Shown here: positions 4,306 through 5,412 of the stretch, piece after piece
How positions within the stretch are numbered: the first letter of the stretch is position 1
Layout: every line of letters begins with the position of its first letter
From: an uncultured Synergistia bacterium
GTDB lineage: Bacteria; Eremiobacterota; SpSt-956; JAKJGF01
Direction of reading: 5' to 3'
DNA length: 8,569 bases
Assembly (NCBI GenBank): GCA_937888925.1
Contig: CALARM010000584.1
Span: 1-8,569, forward strand
Translations under genes and position numbers: made by a program
Notes under the pieces: generated by a model
Told to the model about the DNA's origin: nothing
Seen by the model: the letters and a program-made list of their open reading frames with translations, nothing else
The model's database searches: none

Positions 4306-5412
4306 TTATTGGCTGACAAAATCTTCGTGATAACATTCAGAAAAGTCAAGGCCTGTTTCGGGAAAATTCTCCAGAAAACACAGTGCATAAAACCTGAAAA
4401 AAGTATGAATCGGAATAAATGGAACAAGAAATAAATAGGAAATTGCCATAATTATACAGAATATTAAGAGACTTCCAATAATACCTGCTACGATTCCGAT
4501 CGTAACATTTTTCATAAAGAGAAACACAATACCTATGCCGATACCCACTGCTATGATTATAAGAGGAATATACACTACAGCCAGCGCTATAACAGTCAGG
4601 ATGAATATAATAATACCGAGAAAAGCACCTGCTGCGGCAAAAGCAATTTTCAGGGCATAATAAATGAGAAACTGAAATGGATAGTTCAGTATTAATCTCA
4701 TAAGAAAACCTGTAGAACCTGCTATTCCCATATCTCTGGCATAAGAAATAGGACAGGAAAAATCATAGGTCAGAGAATATATAATACTCGATATTATAAC
4801 AAGTATGAAAAAAGCTACAAAAGAAAGTATAAAATTCGGAATAATAGCCCAGATTGCAAGAGTAGCATCAGGTTTCTCTATTATATGCCAGATATGCAAA
4901 AAAAGGGGAATAAATATAATGATTGTGAGGATAAAAAGCACTGTTCCGACCAGGATATTAAAAAGAAACAGAGAAAAACCTTTGCTTTTATTACTGTTAA
5001 AACTTCTTACTATAGAAACATGTCTCTGTATTAATGATTCCATAAATACAAAAAACATATTGGCTCTTATATAAGAAATCAAGAAAGAAATAGCAGTCAG
5101 TATTATAATAGAAAGAGCGATTAAAACATAAATCAAGATACTGTGATCCTTATAAAATGTCTGTAAATGTTCTATATTCTGTCTCAGACCCTCTGAGACG
5201 TTATCAGATGACCCTCACCCTCCGCCATCACCGCTACTGCCGGCACTGTTACCACCACCGCTGCTGCCACAGCTACCTGCTGCCTGTTGTAATACTCCTC
5301 CAAGAAACCCTGCCAGGCTTAATTCAAGCAATTTCCTCCAGCTGAATGGCTTCAGAAAAAAAAGTTTTGTTCTTCTGAAAGCCTCATACATAGCTTTCTC
5401 TGCATAAAGCAT
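4306..5412 (-). CDS. Polytopic membrane protein with Gly-rich loop, one in-frame TGA (candidate selenoprotein or nonsense-broken gene)
   Basis: From the ATG at 5412 the frame runs 65 codons to a TGA (5217-5215). It then continues in the same frame for 26 residues, then 276 more, to a TAA at 4308-4306: 368 codons in all. The continuation opens LIYVL and forms about six membrane helices (full-length numbering roughly 93-115, 147-175, 188-214, 246-272, 275-300, 304-332). It has RANMFFVFMESLI after the first helix and IPIHTFFRFYALCFL near the end. I recall a family of multi-pass proteins with this order: an RT..F.PFSW-type N-terminus, a Gly-rich loop, then this helix set. That makes the two halves one gene. 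The second half has only a TTG as a possible independent start (5136), inside the first helix. TGA is a normal stop in the Hfq-like, protease and zinc-ribbon genes, so general code reassignment is unlikely. Function unknown. Confidence 0.8.
5181..5199 (-). promoter_or_regulatory. SECIS-like hairpin just downstream of the in-frame TGA
   Basis: On the minus strand GTCTCAGA, GGG, TCTGAGAC forms a perfect 8-bp stem with a GGG triloop. It begins 15 nt after the TGA at 5217-5215, and its apical loop begins 23 nt after. As I recall the bacterial SECIS consensus, it asks for a loop 16-37 nt from the UGA, a 3-14 nt loop with G among the first two bases, and a stem of 4-16 bp; this fits each point. It is not followed by a U-tract, so it is not an intrinsic terminator. 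The hairpin is inside the continuing reading frame (codons 72-78). Selenocysteine insertion is a hypothesis; a chance palindrome or a pausing hairpin cannot be excluded. Confidence 0.5.
5215..5412 (-). CDS. N-terminal segment upstream of the in-frame TGA
   Basis: This is the part that conventional translation would produce alone: 65 residues. It begins with a basic helix (EAFRRTKLFFLKPFSWRKL, 10-28) and a weakly hydrophobic segment (29-45). A Gly/Ser loop with one cysteine (C48) follows and ends in DGGG before the TGA. It has the strongest ribosome site in the minus-strand set, AAGGAGGTG (5430-5422), about 10-11 nt before the ATG, so translation begins here rather than at the second half. As a free peptide it lacks a convincing complete membrane domain. 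With its Gly-rich end it looks like the opening of the longer protein at 5412-4306 rather than a gene of its own. Confidence 0.7.
   Translation of the reverse strand: MLYAEKAMYEAFRRTKLFFLKPFSWRKLLELSLAGFLGGVLQQAAGSCGSSGGGNSAGSSGDGGG

Follow-up and report, generated by a model that had tools for sequence, protein, structure and literature searches.

Eukaryotic SelK is a small, single-pass membrane protein that carries selenocysteine (Sec) near its end, in a Gly-rich disordered part, and has its SECIS element in the 3' UTR; YeeE/YedE is also a membrane protein. The YeeE/YedE thiosulfate transporter family selenoprotein is listed with the motif GUxSG in Table 1 of PMC13188914. For bacterial SECIS (bSECIS) elements, the same source gives four rules, namely an apical loop of 3-9 nt on an upper stem of 4-16 bp, a G within the first two loop positions (usually following the pattern N1-G-[G/U]-N-N2, with N1 and N2 paired), a UGA-to-loop distance of 16-37 nt and an energy of -7.5 kcal/mol or lower, and it states that some genuine elements violate them (PMC13188914). 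The gene described here lies in a window of 8,569 nucleotides, by which we mean the whole stretch of DNA that was analysed. It resembles bacterial selenoproteins of the Escherichia coli formate dehydrogenase type in having an in-frame UGA, a close downstream stem-loop, a G early in the loop and 23 nt between UGA and loop, but differs from them in that neither a CxxU nor a UxxC motif is present at the site and none of three unsplit relatives aligns Cys there. As in YeeE/YedE, the putative Sec would adjoin Gly, whereas the Pfam family of that protein is a different one (PF04143), and the likeness to SelK is one of description alone (a Gly-rich Sec part in a membrane protein). The closest described family is DUF7544 (PF24400), which the joined protein matches over residues 2-350, although the unsplit members found cross the place of the TGA with sense codons. 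We put the probability at roughly 0.8 that the gene encodes a predicted multi-pass DUF7544 membrane protein whose in-frame UGA is likely read as Sec, the hairpin downstream of it being the likely SECIS element.

The gene occupies one minus-strand frame with a single internal stop codon (Table 1). The preliminary description had placed a 65-residue ORF (5412-5215, stop included) and a 276-residue ORF (5136-4306) in that same frame, separated by the TGA and 26 sense codons, with a strong ribosome site ahead of the first piece, and these coordinates and counts proved correct. It did not mention the weaker SD-like AAGGA (5151-5147) ahead of the TTG. When the joined protein was compared with Pfam, a single match to DUF7544 was obtained that spans the TGA and scores 137.4 bits against a cut-off of 27. 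This one match, together with the stop place shared by four of the five other N-terminal pieces (see below), indicates at the level of sequence that the continuity of the frame across the TGA is more than chance.

Table 1. Features of the gene and of the region around its in-frame TGA (positions in the window)
Feature	Positions	Strand	Remark
Whole frame, DUF7544 (PF24400) protein	4306..5412	-	368 codons, one internal TGA; Pfam match
Ribosome binding site AAGGAGG, strong	5424..5430	-	ATG 5412 lies 11 nt downstream
N-terminal piece, 65 codons	5218..5412	-	ends in Gly-rich run
Cys48 codon TGT	5269..5271	-	Cys in 6 of 6 N-terminal pieces (that of the window counted)
In-frame TGA, codon 66, likely selenocysteine	5215..5217	-	4 of the 5 other N-terminal pieces stop at this place
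Linker, 26 sense codons from TGA to second ORF	5137..5214	-	10 of 26 residues identical to unsplit P0009
SD-like AAGGA	5147..5151	-	10 nt upstream of TTG 5136; weaker than AAGGAGG; favours restart at the TTG
Hairpin GTCTCAGA-GGG-TCTGAGAC, likely bacterial SECIS element	5181..5199	-	agrees with the four bSECIS rules given in PMC13188914
C-terminal piece as given by the gene caller, TTG start	4306..5136	-	mostly membrane helices in the model; stop TAA at 4306

Elsewhere in the window, TGA is an ordinary stop codon and the genetic code is standard. Eight genes, one of them cut off at the window end, were counted for code usage; three are terminated by TGA, and apart from codon 66 not one in-frame TGA was found in them, against 141 GGN (Gly) and 32 TGG (Trp) codons. 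The pattern expected of a code with TGA as a sense codon, i.e., many genes with TGA in their interior and no use of TGA as a stop, was thus not found within the window, and no tRNA gene was found there either. Among the other genes, that at 201-2990 (minus strand) encodes a protein of 929 residues that consists for the most part of TPR repeats and has Cys in its N-terminus, and a short Hfq-like protein (3057-3314, minus strand; 40 bits with the Pfam Hfq model, below the cut-off with that of NCBIfam) is encoded between this TPR gene and a trypsin-like gene. The plus-strand gene at 7492-8217 encodes a 241-residue protein that fell into no Pfam or NCBIfam family and has relatives in 52 loci (37-75% identical over the best segment), the hosts being bacteria titled Chloroflexi, Caldiserica, Thermotogae, Elusimicrobia, Spirochaetes and others; going by these matches, it is a widespread and nameless gene. 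Five short tandem arrays (4245-4269, 5436-5450, 5473-5491, 7123-7141 and 7317-7333), all of period 7 with differing units, occupy gaps between those genes that were accepted as real, going by the ORF list. They resemble heptamer repeats of other bacteria.

A search with the joined protein retrieved eight proteins from the 7,995 candidates that shared most words with it. These were the window's own sequence (P0002), six other close relatives (P0003-P0008) that are 67-84% identical and all lack the N-terminal part, and an unsplit relative of 360 residues (P0009; 48% identical). Since P0008 and P0003 sit on short contigs (1,430 and 3,300 bases, respectively), their missing N-terminus weighs less. 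With the 65-residue piece as the query, the hits were the copy belonging to the window itself (P0010) and five further pieces, four of which (P0011, P0012, P0013 and P0015) terminate right after GGG, at the column of the window's TGA; these relatives are available as protein records alone, from which TGA, TAA and TAG cannot be told apart. The fifth (P0014) shifts by one base within the Gly-rich run, continuing in another frame; this may reflect either misassembly of a simple repeat or a genuine frameshift. P0011 and P0004 bear the neighbouring gene tags ABRQ39_03025 and ABRQ39_03020, so the two halves lie side by side in one Candidatus Eremiobacterota genome, and P0014 and P0005, both from 41,071-base contigs, probably share one contig. 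Those close relatives that have a name are all labelled Candidatus Eremiobacterota. A profile-based search (7,995 candidates scored) added unsplit P0016 (42%) and P0017 (40%) as well as distant DUF7544 members, and neither this nor the joined-protein search revealed an unsplit close relative among the candidates scored. From these comparisons, the stop seems to be fixed in one clade, while the outgroups have sense codons at that place.

Further searches addressed nucleotide data. A scan of genome contigs with the relatives' alignment yielded no DNA of a relative, and viral contigs scanned with the first piece, the second piece and that alignment contained no relative. The DNA pattern around the TGA led to 45 viral loci, tblastn with P0001, P0009 and P0016 over 97 loci returned no relative, and plasmid and phage records gave no match. 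In genomes of the phyla reached via the neighbouring 241-residue protein, the gene was found in 0 of 14, 0 of 95, 0 of 44 and 0 of 39, counts that are silent on the lineage because none of these is known as an Eremiobacterota genome.

The preliminary description had proposed to measure codon constraint downstream of the TGA, and coding constraint was found there. Across the linker (residues 67-92), the protein shares 10 of 26 residues with P0009 and 8 of 26 each with P0016 and P0017; for comparison, 123 of 244 residues of the C-terminal body are identical to P0009. The 21-residue core of the linker has eight identities with P0009, a number that none of 17,012 other 21-codon reads of the window reached (the best had seven). 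A second line of evidence came from P0014, whose slipped tail, GEGHPIKSRRV, fixes 19 bases of the underlying DNA, ten at third and nine at second positions of the post-TGA frame and none at first positions. Sixteen of these 19 are the same as in the window, and the three changes all fall on third positions. Through one of these, an A-U pair in the hairpin becomes G-U, while the first G of the loop is kept. The codon of P0014 at the site itself is NGA (i.e., TGA, GGA, AGA or CGA), and its nearest back-translation after the site would read GSSDKVSEGL, as compared with GSSDNVSEGL in the window. Judged by these alignments, the linker after the TGA is conserved as protein.

The hairpin begins 15 nt past the TGA and consists of eight perfect pairs closed by a GGG loop. 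With this 8-bp stem, a loop lying 23 nt from the UGA and an energy of -9.8 kcal/mol, it passes all four of the bSECIS rules quoted above, and its A-GGG-U also agrees with the N1-G-[G/U]-N-N2 pattern. How often this happens by chance was counted with a custom script applying the same four rules. Of the window's 299 TGA trinucleotides, three pass, and two of these three owe it to this same hairpin. The rules are also passed by 0.6% of 5,000 shuffled versions of the 60-nt stretch, by 108 of 10,000 protein-preserving recodings (18 equally strong) and, in the loci among L001-L052 whose GC content is at most 0.42, by 38 of 4,427 TGAs (5 equally strong). Against this, 182 of 16,998 window positions on both strands pass, as do 33 of 2,453 sense codons in genes of the window (17 equally strong), any passes that share this hairpin being included in both counts. 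Moreover, while the 26-nt hairpin alone stands out from its shuffles (z = -3.07), stretches that extend beyond it are barely, if at all, better folded than theirs (z = -1.34, -0.63 and 0.11 at lengths of 48, 60 and 93 nt, respectively). The hairpin is therefore about a one-in-a-hundred match, which is good support for a SECIS role, though short of proof. Two Rfam matches (mir-2012 and BjrC68) scored below the gathering thresholds at places distant from the TGA and were judged to be due to chance.

An AlphaFold2 model built from 27 sequences was all helical and fairly confident (mean pLDDT of 82.7), and no confident match to it was found among solved folds. Residues 45-68, among them Cys48 and residue 66, have a pLDDT below 50, and the helix at 70-89 runs into a long helix at 91-129. 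In the five N-terminal pieces read in frame, Cys48 precedes the stop by 16 to 21 residues. Seven positive residues precede residue 28, five lie at 116-144 and two in between, a distribution suggesting that the loop is outside the membrane. Since a hydropathy scan did not mark helix 25-45 as membrane-spanning, however, this choice of side is a guess. As to the residue that homologues have in place of codon 66, which the preliminary description had proposed to read from an alignment, it is Ser in all three unsplit relatives (P0009, P0016 and P0017) and not Cys, with the limit that loop length is uneven and the alignment uncertain, an alternative alignment placing a gap at residue 66 for P0009. 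The missing Cys homologue lowers confidence in Sec slightly, or may be a sign of an unusual origin. P0016 and P0017 have CNC near the loop start, in contrast to SCGS together with the UGA in the split clade. Perhaps a second Cys was traded for a Sec elsewhere in the loop, an idea at odds with P0009, which has a single Cys at that place.

Several other explanations of the stop were weighed. That it is a recent nonsense mutation or a sequencing error, both of which had been listed as options earlier, or that TGA stands for Gly or Trp in this organism, has next to no probability in our estimate. The codon does lie in a Gly-rich run, one base off GGA, and TGA as Gly has been published for BD1-5/SN-2 bacteria (PMC4032931). 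But relatives independent of one another end at this very residue, which makes a recent mutation or an error very unlikely; the four N-terminal pieces ending at the same GGG and the six close C-terminal relatives devoid of an N-terminus spoke against both. A changed code, in turn, is at odds with the finding that none of the other seven genes contains a TGA, whereas three of the eight end in one. Leaky UGA readthrough, in which an ordinary tRNA would insert a residue and give some full-length, selenium-free protein, would be expected to leave a conserved stop and a downstream frame of just the kind observed; it would not require a suitably spaced hairpin of the SECIS type, and we give it a slim chance.

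The main rival is gene fission, i.e., translation truly ends at the UGA, and two coupled cistrons yield proteins of 65 and 276 residues, with a restart at TTG 5136. The SD-like AAGGA is well placed for such a restart, and the databases do list the second piece alone, P0004, P0005 and P0007 starting at the TTG column and P0003 one residue earlier. To this extent, the earlier proviso that homologues of the second piece normally starting alone would break the fusion holds on paper; its force is reduced by the fact that P0004 and P0005 each have a matching first piece on a contig of equal length, for P0004 under the adjoining gene tag, and such entries would result from any conserved in-frame stop. 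Furthermore, protein-level conservation with unsplit relatives extends over the 26 codons that separate the stop from the TTG, the P0014 changes fall on third positions of the linker frame, the hairpin satisfies the SECIS rules and the modelled helix 70-89 continues into helix 91-129, all of which speaks against fission. The TTG needs no role as a start, since Leu occupies that column in the unsplit relatives as well. We thus regard fission as unlikely. Selenocysteine, named as the first option in the preliminary description, is now the best supported reading because of the conserved stop, the bacterial SECIS-type hairpin and the coding constraint beyond the TGA.

If the codon is read as Sec, a ribosome would start at ATG 5412 behind the strong binding site and reach the UGA at codon 66, where Sec would be inserted by means of SelB and tRNA-Sec (both assumed), and translation would proceed to the TAA at 4306. 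This would place Sec in a flexible loop rich in Gly and Ser (residues 45-68) that links the N-terminal helices to the first long membrane helix. By what is generally known of selenocysteine, the loop with Cys48 and Sec might have a redox role, perhaps on the outer side of the membrane.

The family is absent from the 119 prokaryotic selenoprotein families and subfamilies of the 2026 table (PMC13188914, Table 1). In full-text searches, which leave most subscription papers outside, no literature naming DUF7544 was found, which is weak evidence of an unreported family, and none joining Eremiobacterota with selenocysteine. 'WPS-2' with selenocysteine led only to work on tea, and 'Eremiobacterota' with selenium only to work on mining soil and yak rumen. 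Judged by titles and the openings of abstracts, the other papers listed did not deal with this family either. We consider it rather probable that this DUF7544 membrane protein of the Eremiobacterota lineage represents a novel selenoprotein family, with Sec on a floppy Gly-rich loop, no CxxU and no Cys ancestor. The Sec would have been gained from Ser or Gly and would act as a redox arm at the membrane surface, possibly pairing with Cys48. Given the Ser alignment in the unsplit relatives, the method of searching for Cys/Sec pairs is likely blind to this predicted membrane protein. The gene would suggest the use of selenocysteine in a lineage for which the literature searched held no report of it, and public databases would be carrying it as two false halves.
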